This document shows positions 1 to 5,798 of a stretch of 64,000 nt of DNA, piece after piece (positions within the stretch are counted from its first letter, which is position 1; each line of letters starts with the position of its first letter). The stretch is from Bdellovibrio bacteriovorus str. Tiberius (GTDB lineage Bacteria > Bdellovibrionota > Bdellovibrionia > Bdellovibrionales > Bdellovibrionaceae), in NCBI RefSeq assembly GCF_000317895.1, contig NC_019567.1, positions 1,798,001 to 1,862,000 of the forward strand, given 5' to 3'. The position numbers and the translations under genes were made by a program. Under the pieces are notes generated by a model. The model ran no database searches. It had not been told where the DNA came from and was given only the letters and a program-made list of their open reading frames with translations.

Positions 1-1233
1 AAGCAACATGTTGGAGTGCTGCTGAAAAAGCCTGATGACACTTTGGGTTTTTCATATTCAGAAAAATGGATTTCTGGGAAAGATTCTTTTGTTCTGTCGC
101 CAGCCTTGCCATTGCAAAAGGACGAGTTTAACAATCGCCTGACCAAGGCGTATTTCGACAATCTTCTTCCTGAAGGTGACACTCTAAAGCTGTTTGAACA
201 AATTCTGAAAAAAAGCTTCGAGGATCCCTACCAACTTTTGGAAAGCTACGGTCTTGACTGTGCGGGAGCCCTTGAAATTACGCCGTTGGACGAGGCGCCA
301 GAGACGGTATTAAAAGGGGATCTGGAAGAGATTTCATTTGAGGAAATAGACCGGGTTATCAATAACAAAGAAAGCCTGTATGTGCACAGCCTTGTGAGCC
401 ATAAAGGGCGTTTTTCATTGGCCGGGGCTCAGGATAAAATTCCGGTGATTTTTCAGAGCGGGAAGATTTTTTTGCCGGCGGATGCAAGACCCACAACTCA
501 TATTCTAAAGCCACCCACTCGGATATCGGGAGTTCTAAATTCGGTGCAAAATGAGTATCTGTGCATGAGGCTTGCGGGACTTTGCGGACTGAGTATCCCG
601 GCTATTCAGTTGGTCGGGGAAGAGCATTTATTATTCTTAGTAGAGCGTTACGATCGTAAAATCGAAAAAAATGGAACGGTTGAGCGCCTTCATCAGTTCG
701 ACTTGTGTCAGGCCCAAGGGGTCCCTTCTGCAGAAAAGTACGAGGAAGGTGGTGGGCCGTCATTTGCGCAGAATTATAAGGTCGTAGGGGATATTTCGGA
801 CAATAAGATTCAGGATCTCGAGGCCATCTTGAAGTGGCTGGCCTTTAATTTGTTGGTTGGAAACAACGATTCCCATTCTAAGAATCTGTCTTTTTTATAC
901 GTAGATGGCCATACTCAATTGGCACCTATGTATGATTTGCTTTCTACTAGCATCTATAAAAATATGTCGTCGGCATTTGCGTTCTCGGTCGGAGGGCAGC
1001 GACAGCCAGCGAAAATGAAAAAGAAAAATTTTGAGATGTTGGCTGAAGAATTGGGTTTCTCTAAGAAGAAAGACATCTTTGTGAAAACTCTGAAGGAGAT
1101 GTCCGTATTAGTGGAAGAAAAAGTGGAAACGCTATGGTCAGAAATCGCGGATGATGATCGCTTTAAGTATATTAAAGGTAATCTTCGCGGCGAAATTCAA
1201 AGCCGTTTGAACCTCTATAAATCCGTGCGATGA
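1..1233 (+). CDS. hipA: HipA-family serine/threonine kinase toxin (5' end outside window)
   Basis: HipA toxins are kinases that, in E. coli, phosphorylate glutamyl-tRNA synthetase and induce dormancy. Seen here: the N-terminal DNLLPEG region; a SLAGAQDK motif, matching the E. coli segment with the autophosphorylated serine; an NNDSHSKN catalytic loop; and a MYDLLS metal-binding aspartate. All key kinase residues are present, so the kinase looks intact. The frame stays open to base 1 and residues before the GTG at 16 (KQHVGV) continue the HipA N-terminus, so roughly ten residues are probably missing at the edge rather than GTG being the start. No HipB is visible downstream; if there is one it lies upstream, outside the window. 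Family call is confident; the target is unknown. Confidence 0.9.
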   Translation, partial: KQHVGVLLKKPDDTLGFSYSEKWISGKDSFVLSPALPLQKDEFNNRLTKAYFDNLLPEGDTLKLFEQILKKSFEDPYQLLESYGLDCAGALEITPLDEAPETVLKGDLEEISFEEIDRVINNKESLYVHSLVSHKGRFSLAGAQDKIPVIFQSGKIFLPADARPTTHILKPPTRISGVLNSVQNEYLCMRLAGLCGLSIPAIQLVGEEHLLFLVERYDRKIEKNGTVERLHQFDLCQAQGVPSAEKYEEGGGPSFAQNYKVVGDISDNKIQDLEAILKWLAFNLLVGNNDSHSKNLSFLYVDGHTQLAPMYDLLSTSIYKNMSSAFAFSVGGQRQPAKMKKKNFEMLAEELGFSKKKDIFVKTLKEMSVLVEEKVETLWSEIADDDRFKYIKGNLRGEIQSRLNLYKSVR

Positions 1234-1261
1234 CGCGAACTAAGACTTAAGAAAAACTTGA

Positions 1262-1283
1262 TATTTACATATAATTTACATAT
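1262..1283. repeat. 22-bp direct repeat, copy 1 (tandem ATTTACATAT)
   Basis: Two head-to-tail copies of ATTTACATAT separated by one A. The identical 22-bp string occurs again at 4548-4569. It lies just after hipA and upstream of the mqsR promoter. It could be a binding site for a shared regulator or a trace of recombination; the sequence does not say which. Confidence 0.7.
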
Positions 1284-1340
1284 ACAATATCTTTTTGTAG
1301 AATATGGCTTATTTAACTATTTGAAAATACAGGCTTAGTA

Positions 1341-1369
1341 TTGACTTAAACTGAGTTTAAGTGTTTATT
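1341..1369 (+). promoter_or_regulatory. Predicted mqsR promoter with embedded operator palindrome
   Basis: A -35-like TTGACT (1341-1346) is followed after 17 bp by a weak -10-like TTTATT (1364-1369). The spacer holds a perfect inverted repeat, ACTTAAAC-TGA-GTTTAAGT (1344-1362). In E. coli the MqsA antitoxin binds a palindrome in its own promoter, so this is the likely autoregulatory operator (inference). A second palindrome, AAAGAG-A-CTCTTT (1397-1409), sits just before the toxin start codon and covers its ribosome-binding region. Confidence 0.55.
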
Positions 1370-1412
1370 GATTTGGTCCGATAACCTGTTATGATGAAAG
1401 AGACTCTTTGTT

Positions 1413-1826
1413 ATGCCAGCACATTATCCCCTTATAGATGTGAAAAAGCTGGTAGAGGAGGAACTGAATGACTCATCTGCAGGGAAAGTTATTTTTTCGG
1501 CCAAATCTAGATCGATTAATGCGGTTATTGCTGTGCATAAAAATCTTAAGGGGCACCGAATGACTTCGGAAAAAGCGGCCCAGTTTATTTTGTACAGGCT
1601 GTTGGAGATTCAGGAGAGAGATTTCTGTAAAACTAAAGTCGGGCAGTGGGATGATCCACACTTTATTGTGGATCAATATGGGTTTTCCTACGAAGGCGTA
1701 TCGTATTTTATTAAGTTCAGAATTGATTCTCAATCTGGAGAGCTTGACGAGATTTCTTTTCATCCATTGGAAAAAGATATGATTTTAGAAAGTGGTGTAA
1801 CTTTAAAGGCACAAGGTGGTGTGTGA
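1413..1826 (+). CDS. MqsR-like mRNA interferase toxin of a TAC operon
   Basis: Product of 137 residues. The core around residues 65-120 follows the MqsR pattern: a leucine-rich helix, ERDFCK (MqsR has ESDFYK), then a D-x-Y segment, YFIKF (MqsR VYLKI) and EISFH near the end (MqsR IVSFK). MqsR is a ribosome-independent endoribonuclease of the RelE fold that cuts mRNA at GC-rich triplets. At 98 residues the E. coli protein is shorter; the extra length here is a 45-residue N-terminal stretch. The stop overlaps the next start (TGATG), the usual toxin-first order of mqsRA. No in-frame start lies upstream. Family call by motif only; another RelE-fold toxin is possible. Confidence 0.65.
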   Translation: MPAHYPLIDVKKLVEEELNDSSAGKVIFSAKSRSINAVIAVHKNLKGHRMTSEKAAQFILYRLLEIQERDFCKTKVGQWDDPHFIVDQYGFSYEGVSYFIKFRIDSQSGELDEISFHPLEKDMILESGVTLKAQGGV

Positions 1827-2437
1827 TGAGGCGCTGTGGAGAGTGCGGTAGCACATACTTGAGTAAGAAAAACATTAAAGGTTCTTTGCACCCATGGAAA
1901 GATTATTCTCAGGTGGAGCTTTTGTTGGATCAAGAGGTCTTGACCTGCGAAAAGTGTGGAAATCAGATTATGACAGTGCAGGATCTGAGGAATTTGGATG
2001 AGAATATTGCACAGTCTTTGTTGCTGAAAATCAATAATGCGATTACCTATCTTACGACGAAATACAAAGTAACCCAGGAGGACTTGGCGATAGCTTTGGG
2101 GCGGACACCTGAATACATATCAATGATTAAAAATGGCAAGAAAAAGCCAAGTTTCGGTACTTTTAATCTTTTGATGAGCTACCAGTTGAATCCTCAGATG
2201 CTTACGTCTTTAGCCGGGGTAAAAATTGTTGAGCCAGTTCAATTGTGGGAGGGGCCTCGTCTTTTAAAAGTTTACGTTGGGGGGGCGTTGCCGATACGCA
2301 GATGGCGGACTCTCGTTTGGCAAAACAGTATTCTGAAATGTATCGTCGGCAATGGAGTGAGGCTGAGTCGGTCGGAGCTGGCCCTGAGAATGTTGAGATC
2401 GGCGCGTATCCAGTTTATCATCCAATCAGCAGATTGA
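1826..2437 (+). CDS. MqsA/HigA-like antitoxin with C-terminal extension; probable frame break
   Basis: Two CxxC pairs (CGEC near residue 4, CEKC near residue 41) form an MqsA-type zinc finger. An Xre helix-turn-helix follows at about residues 70-120, with TQEDLAIALG and YISMIKNG. MqsA (131 residues) ends near here, but this protein carries about 80 further residues. In toxin-antitoxin-chaperone systems such an extension is the chaperone-addiction (ChAD) segment that binds the SecB-like partner. Within it, at a seven-G run (2279-2285), the natural-looking frame jumps by -1: the frame ending at 2442 has normal codon use and a plausible tail (AYPVYHPISRLN), while the frame ending at 2437 turns into an Arg/Leu-rich tail. 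Start ATG 1826 overlaps the toxin stop. Confidence 0.75.
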   Translation: MRRCGECGSTYLSKKNIKGSLHPWKDYSQVELLLDQEVLTCEKCGNQIMTVQDLRNLDENIAQSLLLKINNAITYLTTKYKVTQEDLAIALGRTPEYISMIKNGKKKPSFGTFNLLMSYQLNPQMLTSLAGVKIVEPVQLWEGPRLLKVYVGGALPIRRWRTLVWQNSILKCIVGNGVRLSRSELALRMLRSARIQFIIQSAD

Positions 2438-2448
2438 ATTAACGGAAG

Positions 2449-2943
2449 ATGAGTATGGAAGAGCAAAATGTAGAGAAAGATGAAGGAGTTTTGGCGGGGC
2501 TTGTGAAGCAGCTTGAAATGCAATCCGTAAGTCTTGTAGGTGTTGATTTGCATATTTCTTTGCCCGCGGATGTGGTGGATTTTGGGAAGGTCCGGTGGGA
2601 AGTGAGTCATGATTACAAATGGCAGCAGCTTCCGTCAGATAGTGGAGACAAAAGTGAAGTATTTTGTTTTGTCTCTACGGATGTACTAGGAAAGTACATG
2701 GCGGGCACACAGGAGTACAATTATCTTGTCGACGGAAAAGTATTGTACGGAGGATGCATGTTTGTTGTTCGCTACAAGATTCCATCTTCTGTTGTTCTTA
2801 ATGATGAGACATTGATGCTGATTGCAGGGAAGTGCGCAAGTATTCATGCTGCACCATATGTGAAGAGTTATTTGGACGCTCAACTAAGTCAGATGGGTGT
2901 TAAAGGAGTCACTCTTCCTTTATCTCTGATAAGCGGTGTTTAG
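2449..2943 (+). CDS. SecB-like chaperone of the TAC operon
   Basis: Product of 164 residues, near the usual SecB length of about 155. The C-terminal half resembles SecB: a strand-rich middle, then a helix beginning near HAAPYVKSYLDAQL, the GVKGVTLPL segment matching SecB F-P-x-L-x-L-x-P, and a short tail. SecB tetramers hold unfolded proteins; solitary SecB-like proteins next to an antitoxin with a long C-terminus protect that antitoxin from proteolysis. Its position six bases after the longer antitoxin frame, on the same strand, fits a three-gene operon. ATG 2455 may be the true start because GGAAG at 2444-2448 is too close to ATG 2449. Similarity is weak by eye; operon context carries much of the call. 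Confidence 0.6.
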   Translation: MSMEEQNVEKDEGVLAGLVKQLEMQSVSLVGVDLHISLPADVVDFGKVRWEVSHDYKWQQLPSDSGDKSEVFCFVSTDVLGKYMAGTQEYNYLVDGKVLYGGCMFVVRYKIPSSVVLNDETLMLIAGKCASIHAAPYVKSYLDAQLSQMGVKGVTLPLSLISGV

Positions 2944-2971
2944 AGAAAAAGGGGATCCCCCTTTTTTCTCT
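2942..2971. terminator. Bidirectional terminator between TAC operon and nitronate monooxygenase
   Basis: A long inverted repeat: AGAGAAAAAGGGG, a short loop, then CCCCTTTTTTCTCT. The T-run on one strand and A-run on the other suit two convergent transcription units. It begins next to the chaperone stop and ends at the first base of the convergent gene's stop codon. Confidence 0.75.
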
Positions 2972-4446
2972 CAAATTAAAGATAGTTGGGCTTCTACTGT
3001 TGTTTGGGCACTTTCCTCCAAGCCCAGCAGATAAGCCACAACGTCTTTAGCGCTGTAGGAACTTTTCCCACGAAGCATACGAGCAACATTATTCAAGTCA
3101 TCCCCCGCAGTCAGCAAAGGCTGCTCTTCCACGCCACCGGCCTGGATTTGGCCCATGCCCACGTCAGCCATCAAAGCATTGCACAGACATTTACGTCCCA
3201 CTGTGTCTTCTTCCAAGCCGCCTTTTTTAACATAATCATTCACCGGTTCAGCAGGGCAGCGTTGGCCCACACTGCCGTCAGGTTTCTGATAAGCATGGCG
3301 CAAGTAACCCAGATCGCAAATGCGTTTGCGGGAAAGGTACAAAGCCTCTTCAGAAATAGTTCCAGAAAGGCGCACGGCCTTAAATGGAAAACCTGTCGGC
3401 GAAGAGCGTGGATCCGTAAAGATCCAGCCACCTTCAGGAGCTGTTTCAGTCGTGATTTTTTTCAAAGCCTGGGCTTTGTGTTCTTCCTTCACGCCGGATT
3501 CTTCCGAGAAGGCAAACAAAGTTCCCACCTGAACACCGTGCGCACCTTGAGCACGAACTTCAGCCAGCTTTTCCGGAGTCGCATAATAGCCCGCCATCCA
3601 GAACGGCAGCTCTAGTGCCGCCATTTCTTTCAAGCACACTTCATCGCGAGTTCCATAAACCGGCTCACCACGCTCGTTCAGTTTCATCGGACCACGCGGA
3701 GGCGCATTGTGGCCGCCAGCCAAAGGACCTTCTACGATGAAGCCATCCACGCGACCCGTGGATTTCTTTTTCAGATTCGCGGCTAAAATTGCAGACGAAA
3801 CAATCGGGAAGAAGTAAGGGCGTTTTAATGGAACAAGCTCAGTGCCTTCCATCACAGATTGCGGATCAAAAGAAGTGATCCCGTCTTCGGAAGCTCCAGC
3901 CACCGGAACCTTCAAAGTCGCTTTCAGATTTTGAGAAAGCAAATCCAAGGCACCCGGGATTTCCCGCGGAATACCCGCACCCATAATAACGTAATCCACA
4001 CCCGCCAGCAGGCCGCCGTAAAGGCAGGCAAGGTTTGGCAGAACGACTTTTTCCAAAAGATTCAGCCCGATCACGCCATTGTGCCCCTCGCGCGCCAGCC
4101 ACACTTCAACGAAGCTTGCCGCCACAGTCAGTTGCAACAAAGCTTTCGGGGATTCCAGATTGAACATCGGAGGACGTTTGTAGGCTTGAGTCGCAGGACG
4201 GCCGCCTTCAATAAAATAAGTATCCAGAATCTTTTGAGCGATTTCCTGGGAAGGGAAGGCTTTCAAAGCACGGCGGCAGTCACCGGCAATATCACCATCT
4301 TGCAGACGACGAACCAGAACTGAATTGATCGCAGTTCCAGAAACAACGCCCAACTGGCCTGTTTGAGAAACTGTTTTTGCCAAACGCCAGTCAGAGACTG
4401 CGATCCCCATGCCACCTTGAATTACGATCGGATGATTAAATTGCAT
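2971..4446 (-). CDS. Nitronate monooxygenase / 2-nitropropane dioxygenase family FMN enzyme
   Basis: Product of 491 residues. The start IVIQGGMGIAVSDWRLA and the central GPLAGGHNAPP, with its likely catalytic histidine, are typical of the FMN-binding TIM barrel of the nitronate monooxygenase family. GAHGVQVGTLFAF near residue 310 matches the phosphate-binding end. The protein is longer than the class I enzymes (about 350 residues) and resembles the long form with a Cys-containing C-terminal part (PVNDYVKKGG, KCLCNALMADVG). Such enzymes oxidise alkyl nitronates, but related members have other flavin roles, so the substrate is uncertain. It lies alone, convergent with the TAC operon. Confidence 0.85.
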   Translation of the reverse strand: MQFNHPIVIQGGMGIAVSDWRLAKTVSQTGQLGVVSGTAINSVLVRRLQDGDIAGDCRRALKAFPSQEIAQKILDTYFIEGGRPATQAYKRPPMFNLESPKALLQLTVAASFVEVWLAREGHNGVIGLNLLEKVVLPNLACLYGGLLAGVDYVIMGAGIPREIPGALDLLSQNLKATLKVPVAGASEDGITSFDPQSVMEGTELVPLKRPYFFPIVSSAILAANLKKKSTGRVDGFIVEGPLAGGHNAPPRGPMKLNERGEPVYGTRDEVCLKEMAALELPFWMAGYYATPEKLAEVRAQGAHGVQVGTLFAFSEESGVKEEHKAQALKKITTETAPEGGWIFTDPRSSPTGFPFKAVRLSGTISEEALYLSRKRICDLGYLRHAYQKPDGSVGQRCPAEPVNDYVKKGGLEEDTVGRKCLCNALMADVGMGQIQAGGVEEQPLLTAGDDLNNVARMLRGKSSYSAKDVVAYLLGLEESAQTTVEAQLSLI

Positions 4447-4743: not shown

Positions 4744-5214
4744 GTGAAATCTAAAACGGCCAAACTTCGACGGGCGCAGTTGGATCAACAGTTTATGACA
4801 GCACATGGAATCAGCTCGGTGAAAACCCCCAAGACGGGGTGGGTTCGCGAAGTGCGTACCGCTCTGGGGATGTCGATGAGTGATTTGGCCGCGCGCCTTG
4901 GGGTGATCAAACAGCGTATTGAAGGGCTTGAAAAAAATGAAGTGGCTGGAACGGTCACGATCGAATCCTTAAGAAAGGCGGCAGAGGCTATGAACTGTGA
5001 TTTCGTTTATCACTTTGTCCCAAAGCAGGGGTTGCAAAAAACCTTAGAATCCCAAGCCAGCAAAGTCGCCGAAGAGATCGTCAGATCCAGCGAGCATTCC
5101 ATGAGCCTTGAATTGCAAAGCACTTCCAAATCCGCACAGAAAGCTCTTGTCGAAGAAATCGCGCTTGAACTTTTGCGCAACGAAGACCGCCGTATCTGGA
5201 GTTTGAAAAAATGA
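4744..5214 (+). CDS. Xre-family regulator, mobile mystery protein A type
   Basis: Product of 156 residues starting at GTG 4744, with a GGGGG ribosome-binding run five bases upstream. The helix-turn-helix spans about residues 33-75 (REVRTALGMSMSDLAARLGV, then QRIEGLEKNE). The N-terminal KLRRAQLDQQF and the NCDFVYHFVPK strand after the HTH are characteristic of the family named mobile mystery protein A, always paired with a Fic-domain partner B. It probably represses its own operon through the palindromes at 4646-4733 and acts as antitoxin or control factor for the Fic protein. Its stop overlaps the next start by four bases. Confidence 0.85.
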   Translation: MKSKTAKLRRAQLDQQFMTAHGISSVKTPKTGWVREVRTALGMSMSDLAARLGVIKQRIEGLEKNEVAGTVTIESLRKAAEAMNCDFVYHFVPKQGLQKTLESQASKVAEEIVRSSEHSMSLELQSTSKSAQKALVEEIALELLRNEDRRIWSLKK

Positions 5215-5798
5215 AGATCCCGTCCATTCCCGGAGCCACACCTTTGGATGATGAGACCTTGCGCGGTCTGATCCCGGGTTTAACGACTCACGGGGAGCTG
5301 GATGAATTCGAAGCCGCCAATATTGCGCGTGCCATGTTGTGGGCTGAATCCAGCCGGTCCTTGAAAAAAGACCTGCTCAGTATGTCGGGACTTAAGCGCC
5401 TGCATCAGAAGATGTTTGAAGACACCTGGATTTGGGCCGGTGACTTAAGAATCCGTCAAACCAACATCGGCGTGTCGCCGCAGACGATTCAGAGTGATAT
5501 GGCTATTTTGCTGGGTGATATCAGCTACTGGTTGAAAAATCAGACTTTCCCGCTTGAGGAAATTGCCATCCGTTTCCATCATCGTCTGGTTTATATTCAT
5601 CCCTTTCCCAATGGAAACGGGCGTTGCGCGCGATTGGCAACAGATCTGTTTTTGAAGCAGCAGGGGGTTGCAGGTTTCACGTGGGGGCTTGGCAGTTTGG
5701 CGCAGTTGGGAAAAGCCCGCGAAGAATACATTCGCTGTCTAAGAAAAGCCGATCAAGAAGGGGACTATGGCCCCCTTTTGAAATTTGCGAAAAGTTAG
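5211..5798 (+). CDS. Fic-domain protein, mobile mystery protein B type
   Basis: Product of 195 residues. The Fic motif HPFPNGNGRCAR lies at about residues 130-141, with the catalytic histidine. The usual acidic residue before GNGR is asparagine here, which weakens metal binding in classical AMPylating Fic proteins; this appears typical of this subfamily. The N-terminal GATPLDDETLRGLIP and the WIWAGDLR segment (residues 75-82) also match mobile mystery protein B. Fic proteins transfer AMP or other nucleotide parts to target proteins. ATGA overlap with the Xre gene indicates translational coupling. The target is unknown, and whether it acts as a toxin is inferred only from the pairing. Confidence 0.88.
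   Translation: MKIPSIPGATPLDDETLRGLIPGLTTHGELDEFEAANIARAMLWAESSRSLKKDLLSMSGLKRLHQKMFEDTWIWAGDLRIRQTNIGVSPQTIQSDMAILLGDISYWLKNQTFPLEEIAIRFHHRLVYIHPFPNGNGRCARLATDLFLKQQGVAGFTWGLGSLAQLGKAREEYIRCLRKADQEGDYGPLLKFAKS

Follow-up and report, generated by a model that had tools for sequence, protein, structure and literature searches.

A three-gene operon in the genome of Bdellovibrio bacteriovorus str. Tiberius is, at a probability that we put at roughly 0.8, a divergent toxin-antitoxin-chaperone (TAC) module of the MqsRAC type, carried as a small insert. The operon lies near the start of a 64,000-nucleotide stretch (NC_019567.1, positions 1,798,001 to 1,862,000 of the forward strand), hereafter the window, in whose coordinates positions are given unless stated otherwise; positions below 1 lie upstream of the window start. 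The computed support for this reading comes from the gene order, the toxin and chaperone folds, the MqsA family membership of the antitoxin, a shared operator, the co-occurrence of a long antitoxin tail with a SecB-like gene, and the patchy presence of the module. MqsRA-SecB modules and the anti-phage effect of one of them have already been published, and we rate the operon as a divergent addition to these; a literature search found no paper joining Bdellovibrio, toxin-antitoxin (TA) and SecB. The operon extends chaperone-bearing MqsRA modules to the Bdellovibrionota; in these hosts no SecB is recognised, and there may be no export work for the chaperone to share.

Gene order, products and operator

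Three same-strand open reading frames (ORFs) are found within 1413-2943 (+). They encode an MqsR-like toxin of 137 amino acids (aa; 1413-1826), an MqsA-like antitoxin of 203-204 aa in its annotated frame (starting at GTG 1823 or ATG 1826 and ending at 2437) and a SecB-like chaperone of 164 aa (2449-2943). The antitoxin start overlaps the toxin stop in a TGATG at 1824-1828. In a codon log-odds model trained on 39 ORFs of the window, the read frames scored 17.4 bits for the toxin, 13.0 bits for the antitoxin up to a G7 tract and 9.9 bits for the SecB-like gene, and the other two forward frames of the three genes scored -55 to -138 with stops penalised. The same order is kept in three other genomes, which, together with the ORFs and the codon log-odds, bears out the three tight genes on one strand described in an initial annotation of this DNA. 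As expected of a TAC module, a TA pair and a SecB homologue share one predicted operon, in the same order in four genomes.

By its predicted fold and its operon partner, the toxin is an MqsR. The initial annotation had made its MqsR-like first product depend on a structural comparison with MqsR, and a match was found. The AlphaFold model (pLDDT 91.8) has MqsR (3HI2) at Foldseek rank 1 (E 4.1e-3, probability 1.00), and VIA-align superimposes the two at Z 12.3 and 1.4 Å over 89 residues with 21% identity, the next row being at Z 5.2. A phmmer search with the single toxin gave no match among PDB sequences; a profile of 11 toxin relatives found MqsR there at E 0.007. PF15723 matches 8 of these 11 family members at E<=0.1 (best 5.6e-6).

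The third protein is supported as a SecB-like chaperone by its predicted structure. Its monomer model (pLDDT 85, from a 4-row alignment) has the TAC chaperone Rv1957 (5MTW) as the best PDB match by Foldseek (E 3.2e-7), so that the structural comparison with SecB, on which the initial annotation had also relied, was positive. VIA-align gave Z 13.8 and 2.6 Å over 135 residues with 13% identity to Rv1957, followed by E. coli SecB (Z 12.4), two proteins of unknown function (9.2 and 9.0) and then 5.7. The 4-row profile found Rv1957 at E 1e-4, the only PDB sequence below E 0.1; phmmer with the single protein gave no match among PDB sequences. In the profile alignment, Pro155-Pro156 of Rv1957, which belong to its chaperone-addiction (ChAD) site according to PMC6377645, align to Lys-Gly in the studied protein. 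PADLOC gave no match for the studied toxin or chaperone; among three SecB-like proteins searched, that of genome G207 matched PD-T4-9_C over residues 122-160 (E 7.9e-5), and neither the studied one nor that of G162 matched.

The antitoxin matches TIGR03830 at E 2.6e-10, its 40.2 bits falling short of the cut-off of 61.8; 10 of 11 aligned relatives match the model at 1e-3. Its family profile covers E. coli MqsA (3GN5) almost whole (profile 4-130, E 1.4e-6), as second-best match after one that covers only a helix-turn-helix (HTH) domain (1e-6). The Cys pairs C5/C8 and C42/C45 are invariant in the 11 aligned sequences, an Xre HTH lies C-terminal to the zinc domain, and the chain continues for about 80 residues past the HTH. 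PADLOC matched the antitoxin to three models (HTH_VI, NsnC and capH), which we read as HTH-type matches.

Upstream of the toxin, the palindrome ACTTAAACTGAGTTTAAGT at 1344-1362 forms a perfect inverted repeat with the core TTAAACTGAGTTTAA at 1346-1360; the start at 1341 chosen in the initial annotation includes it. With up to 1 mismatch allowed, the 15-base core has no second site in the genome of 3.99 Mb, and within the window it occurs once at up to 2 mismatches, against 0.12 in shuffles. The core also lies upstream of the other three triplets (loci L010, L011 and L023) and of one two-gene pair (L019), and related palindromes precede several further two-gene pairs.

Antitoxin tail and the G7 tract

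The length of the antitoxin follows the presence of the chaperone gene. The four antitoxins beside a SecB-like gene measure 186, 193, 204 and 211 aa, versus 138-162 aa in 15 of the 16 without one; among these 20 antitoxins, a long tail, the extension expected in a TAC module, is found in 4/4 and 1/16, respectively. The lengths of L013, L021 and L029 were taken after trimming N-terminal ORF extensions (untrimmed 185, 157 and 150 aa), and only L013 would otherwise exceed 162 aa. The 16 include three antitoxins next to broken or partial toxins (L003, L031/L042 and L032), the last of which came from a scan of genome contigs and lies outside the loci of the 17 toxin-bearing genomes, as well as the 142-aa antitoxin of L007, which lies opposite a longer ORF on the other strand. 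A Trp after residue 115 is found in 4/4 antitoxins beside a SecB-like gene versus 1/12 others. This distribution points to the proximal extension at 2189-2281 (+), which contains Trp and ends in LWEGPRLLKVYVG, as a putative chaperone-binding segment; for comparison, the ChAD of Mycobacterium tuberculosis is described as carrying WHRLSSYR (PMC5105189). By analogy, the antitoxin tail would be a chaperone-addiction segment.

The distal part of the tail is less straightforward. Downstream of the Trp-bearing segment, a G7 tract at 2279-2285 (+), the sole G/C run >=7 in the window, coincides with an apparent change of coding frame. Over 48-49 codons after the tract, the -1 frame scores +5.1 bits and the annotated frame -5.5 bits; for comparison, 49 codons of the operon's own read frames give about 3-6 bits, and across the genome true frames score 17.9 +/- 7.5 and wrong frames -24.6 +/- 10.8. 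The alternative tail ADTQMADSRLAKQYSEMYRRQWSEAESVGAGPENVEIGAYPVYHPISRLN spans 2290-2442 (+) with its stop at 2440-2442, and both frames are open to within 12 bases of the SecB-like gene. As the G7 tract coincides with the coding-frame change, the annotated C-terminus of the antitoxin is doubtful, and its last ~50 residues are probably not in the ancestral frame. The initial annotation's antitoxin thus stands as to its CxxC motifs, Xre domain and tail of about 80 residues, and probably fails for the last ~50 of these as annotated. The frame change at the G7 tract, as read from codon usage, is a new point.

The frame change may reflect a genuine slip by one base, an error in the local sequence or a switch that works by slippage. 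A general assembly fault at G/C runs was considered and rejected. The genome holds 43 distinct G/C runs >=7, that of the window included, of which the window's and 40 others were read, non-coding runs included, and 2 were left out. The best frame was the same on both sides of 25 of the 40, differed on the same strand at 3 and lay on opposite strands at 12. Among the 19 others with both flanks at >=5 bits, 16 keep their frame, 1 changes frame on the same strand and 2 change strand. As a switch, a reading that we consider quite unlikely, slippage, whether of DNA between generations or of RNA polymerase on one template, would yield two forms of the antitoxin that share the core and the proximal segment and differ in their distal tails. 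If this were true, a population or a single cell would mix strongly and weakly chaperone-addicted antitoxin, which would tune toxin release. Near C1 1135384 (L091), a G8 run likewise separates two different best frames (15 and 18 bits, with a second-best of 15 on the right), marking a possible second slippage-prone gene.

Distribution, mechanism and rival explanations

The toxin profile matches 17 of 368 Bdellovibrionota genomes at 1e-6, 13 of them without a SecB-like match, and most toxin relatives belong to two-gene pairs. The SecB-like profile matches 6/368 genomes at 1e-3. All three genes stand side by side in 4/368: the studied genome, G207 (L023), G162 (L010) and G024 (L011); the synteny search proposed with the initial annotation thus found the triplet in 3/367 other genomes. 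A scan of genome contigs with the single toxin sequence found no relative, and one with a six-row toxin alignment found 9 loci. The SecB-like protein had no match in plasmids or phages, and the toxins (studied and L023) and the antitoxin had none in plasmids; in viral contigs, neither the toxin alignment nor the SecB-like protein had a match by pattern scans, which reach only close or motif-bearing relatives. In the antitoxin tree (16 rows, with L003, L007, L031/L042 and L032 left out, as in the toxin tree), the studied antitoxin groups with L023 and L010 at 94/73, and L011 stands apart on a long branch.

The scans recognised no canonical SecB in these hosts. PF02556 was above its cut-off in 0/357 Bdellovibrionota genomes, with 4 weak partial matches (best 3.7e-4), and a smaller scan gave 0/29, the studied genome included; of 14 control genomes, 5 matched and 4 were above the cut-off. 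The model also matches 0/4 members of the studied SecB-like family at E<=1, and therefore these scans show only that canonical SecB is not recognised. The host has no other recognised SecB, and its chaperone may therefore serve the TAC module alone.

The module appears to be a discrete insert. In G193, which lacks 1222-3007, a hipA homologue (72% identical) has the downstream neighbour gene next after it, and 195 bases separate the aligned parts; this site is not fully syntenic, as the gene at -1103 to -532 lies on the other side of the neighbour gene. In G065 and G069, -517 to 3021 is missing, and the flanks (94-97% and 86-88% identical) lie about 50 bases apart. The fourth relative compared, G127, aligned on one side only. 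Recombinase-like or transfer genes stand at most about 5 kb from the other three triplets: G024 has an integrase (3.5e-22) together with a TraG/D-like protein, G207 an integrase-like protein under the Pfam cut-off (5.4e-4), and G162 a Recombinase (8.4e-10) about 5 kb away.

The operon shares parts with several known systems. By their published descriptions, MqsRAC in E. coli C496_10 (PMC9519451) and the TAC of Vibrio cholerae RC385 (PMC5105189) likewise combine an MqsR-type toxin, an MqsA-type antitoxin and a SecB-like third gene. Unlike in these modules, the studied toxin is below the Pfam MqsR cut-off, with Lys56 and Tyr81 unconserved in its family. The Vibrio MqsRA-SecB TAC is reported to be functional (PMC5105189), and the E. 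coli MqsRAC to protect against T2 (PMC9519451). M. tuberculosis HigB1-HigA1-Rv1957 (5MTW, PMC6377645) shares the chaperone fold, the gene order and a Trp-bearing antitoxin tail, but its toxin and antitoxin are HigBA instead of MqsRA and the chaperones are only 13% identical, as given above. CmdTAC, the anti-phage system PD-T4-9 (PMC11618068, PMC9519451), has a SecB-like third gene as well, and the G207 homologue matches PD-T4-9_C over 39 residues; CmdT, however, is an ADP-ribosyltransferase, and the CmdTAC toxin and antitoxin are reported to be unrelated to MqsRA (PMC9519451). The two-gene MqsRA pairs of Bdellovibrionota (L004-L009, L013, L019-L021, L029, L039) have the same toxin and antitoxin families but no SecB-like gene, and their antitoxins of 141-153 aa after trimming have no long tail. 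Within one phylum, a single toxin family thus occurs both in plain pairs and in chaperone triplets, and similar palindromes precede several of them. ChAD grafts are reported to render two-component antitoxins chaperone-dependent (PMC5105189); as pairs and triplets occur together in one phylum, the gain of chaperone addiction could therefore be studied through natural relatives instead of tail grafts.

A mechanism can be proposed by analogy with the M. tuberculosis TAC (PMC5105189, PMC6377645), E. coli MqsRAC (PMC9519451) and CmdTAC (PMC11618068), as these sources describe them. The antitoxin HTH would bind the palindrome and repress the operon, and its zinc domain would block the toxin, whose RNase fold suggests that it would cut mRNA and stop growth. 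The antitoxin would be unstable unless its tail is held by the co-encoded SecB-like protein. When the chaperone is titrated by another client, most plausibly a newly made phage structural protein, as in CmdTAC, where a phage capsid protein is reported to trigger CmdC dissociation (PMC11618068), a protease would remove the antitoxin and the freed toxin would stop the infected cell. We infer both chaperone addiction and phage sensing for the studied operon from these systems.

Several observations weigh against a TAC module of this type. For the toxin model, Foldseek gives no match at E 0.001 or better, and the toxin itself reaches 13.7 bits with PF15723 (E 0.083), short of the Pfam gathering score of 26.2 bits. 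Lys56 and Tyr81 are reported to be essential in E. coli MqsR (PMC9636575). When these are placed by profile alignment to MqsR (with the chain numbering, in our reading, shifted by 3), the Lys56 column holds Lys in 2/11 and Arg in 2/11 toxin family members, and the Tyr81 column holds Tyr in 5/11 and Phe in 6/11; the studied toxin has Lys73 and Phe99 and lacks the essential pair. Other residues are invariant in the 11-row alignment, including Asp87, Tyr89, Lys101, Phe102, Phe116, His117 and Pro118, which suggests that the active site has possibly been re-tooled. The non-conservation of Lys56 and Tyr81 in this family, as aligned here, is a new point. The SecB-like protein matches no Pfam, NCBIfam or PADLOC model, so that the third product predicted in the initial annotation holds by structure and family profile and finds no family model of its own. 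The tail of the studied antitoxin seems frameshifted, TAC antitoxin tails do not align with one another (published ChADs are described as also differing among themselves, PMC5105189), and one antitoxin, L012 of G109, has 178 aa with no SecB-like gene. The exact operator core has 11 sites in 10/290 genomes; 5 of them belong to this TA family (4 triplets and 1 pair), and the other 6 lie at unrelated genes. A control with the pattern reversed also matched 10 genomes; the core is therefore no marker by itself, and we rejected it as a phylum-wide one. Finally, the trees do not settle a single origin of the triplet, with 3 label changes in the toxin tree and 2 in the antitoxin tree.

The same anatomy could have been selected to maintain mobile DNA by addiction instead of to defend against phages, with a chaperone that only makes the antitoxin more labile. 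We consider this possible but clearly less probable. It would fit the recombinase-like and transfer genes near the other three triplets, and the studied copy is itself a discrete insert near other TA-like genes; however, counting from the window start, no recombinase was noticed among the ORFs up to 6 kb on the downstream side and about 10 kb on the upstream side, most of which were not family-searched. Two-gene relatives would already suffice for addiction without a chaperone, and the E. coli MqsRAC is reported to shield its host against a phage (PMC9519451). A tentative alternative, given similar weight, is that the module is altered or decaying: a one-base slip at G7 would have given a basic, hydrophobic distal tail, with antitoxin control changed or lost. 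The coding-like frame indeed switches there while 16/19 well-scored runs keep theirs, which argues against a general fault of the assembly at such runs, and the net charge of the extension is +8 as annotated, compared with -1 in the other frame and -8 to 0 in the three other TAC antitoxins. On the other hand, neither the toxin nor the chaperone nor the core of the antitoxin is damaged, and the proximal part of the tail, with its Trp, comes before the tract. The gap between the frames is about 10 bits over 49 codons, with both values between the true- and wrong-frame means, and neither frame resembles the relatives: neither clearly beats shuffles against the other TAC tails (the best fraction, that of the annotated frame against L011, is 0.078).

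That the SecB-like gene encodes a general export chaperone that follows a TA pair by chance is very improbable. The host could use it as such, given that no other SecB-like protein is recognised in the genome, but its profile is found in only the six genomes mentioned, four times in a TA operon, once at a contig edge and once behind an Xre gene at which no toxin was recognised, and its nearest fold is that of a TAC chaperone. Least probable is that the module senses disturbance during prey invasion instead of phage. Nothing was found in favour of this beyond the presumed predatory life style, and a triplet present in 4/368 Bdellovibrionota genomes is therefore not part of a shared predation programme.

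Flanking features and related loci

A promoter-like TTGATT-16-TATGAT lies between the operator and the toxin start at 1368-1395 (+), with 9/12 consensus matches and a TG before the second hexamer. The scan found 7 such sites in the stretch versus 3.9 +/- 2.1 in shuffles, which makes the match weak alone; a TCCGA-containing stretch at the site recurs in aligned leaders. A possible terminator, read by eye, is an inverted repeat centred on GGGGATCCCC and followed by a T run at 2943-2972 (+), which the terminator scan did not report.

Other TA-like genes are found within about 7.5 kb: a ParE-like toxin and its Xre partner, a gene with a HipA domain immediately upstream of the operon and, on the downstream side, the mobile mystery proteins A (Xre) and B (Fic). 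These genes lie at 16-1233 and 4744-5798 of the window and at C1 1796315-1796900 (L058:8316-8901).

Two of the SecB-like matches lie outside a triplet. In G093, the SecB-like gene at a contig edge (L055:120-596) has LPPL at the stretch that contacts ChAD in Rv1957, and its upstream partners would fall off the contig. In G065, of the same genus as the studied strain, a short SecB-like frame (L056/L057; L057:3203-3909, covering positions 96-165 of the profile) comes immediately after a 103-aa Xre gene, where no MqsR-like toxin was recognised; the frame is perhaps a remnant or another TAC type. In G109, also of the same genus, the MqsRA-family pair with the 178-aa antitoxin is followed by an overlapping 568-aa ParA-like protein (L117:2288-4925). 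This protein matches the PADLOC candidate model PDC-M28B (1.1e-26) and may represent another kind of third partner for this TA family.

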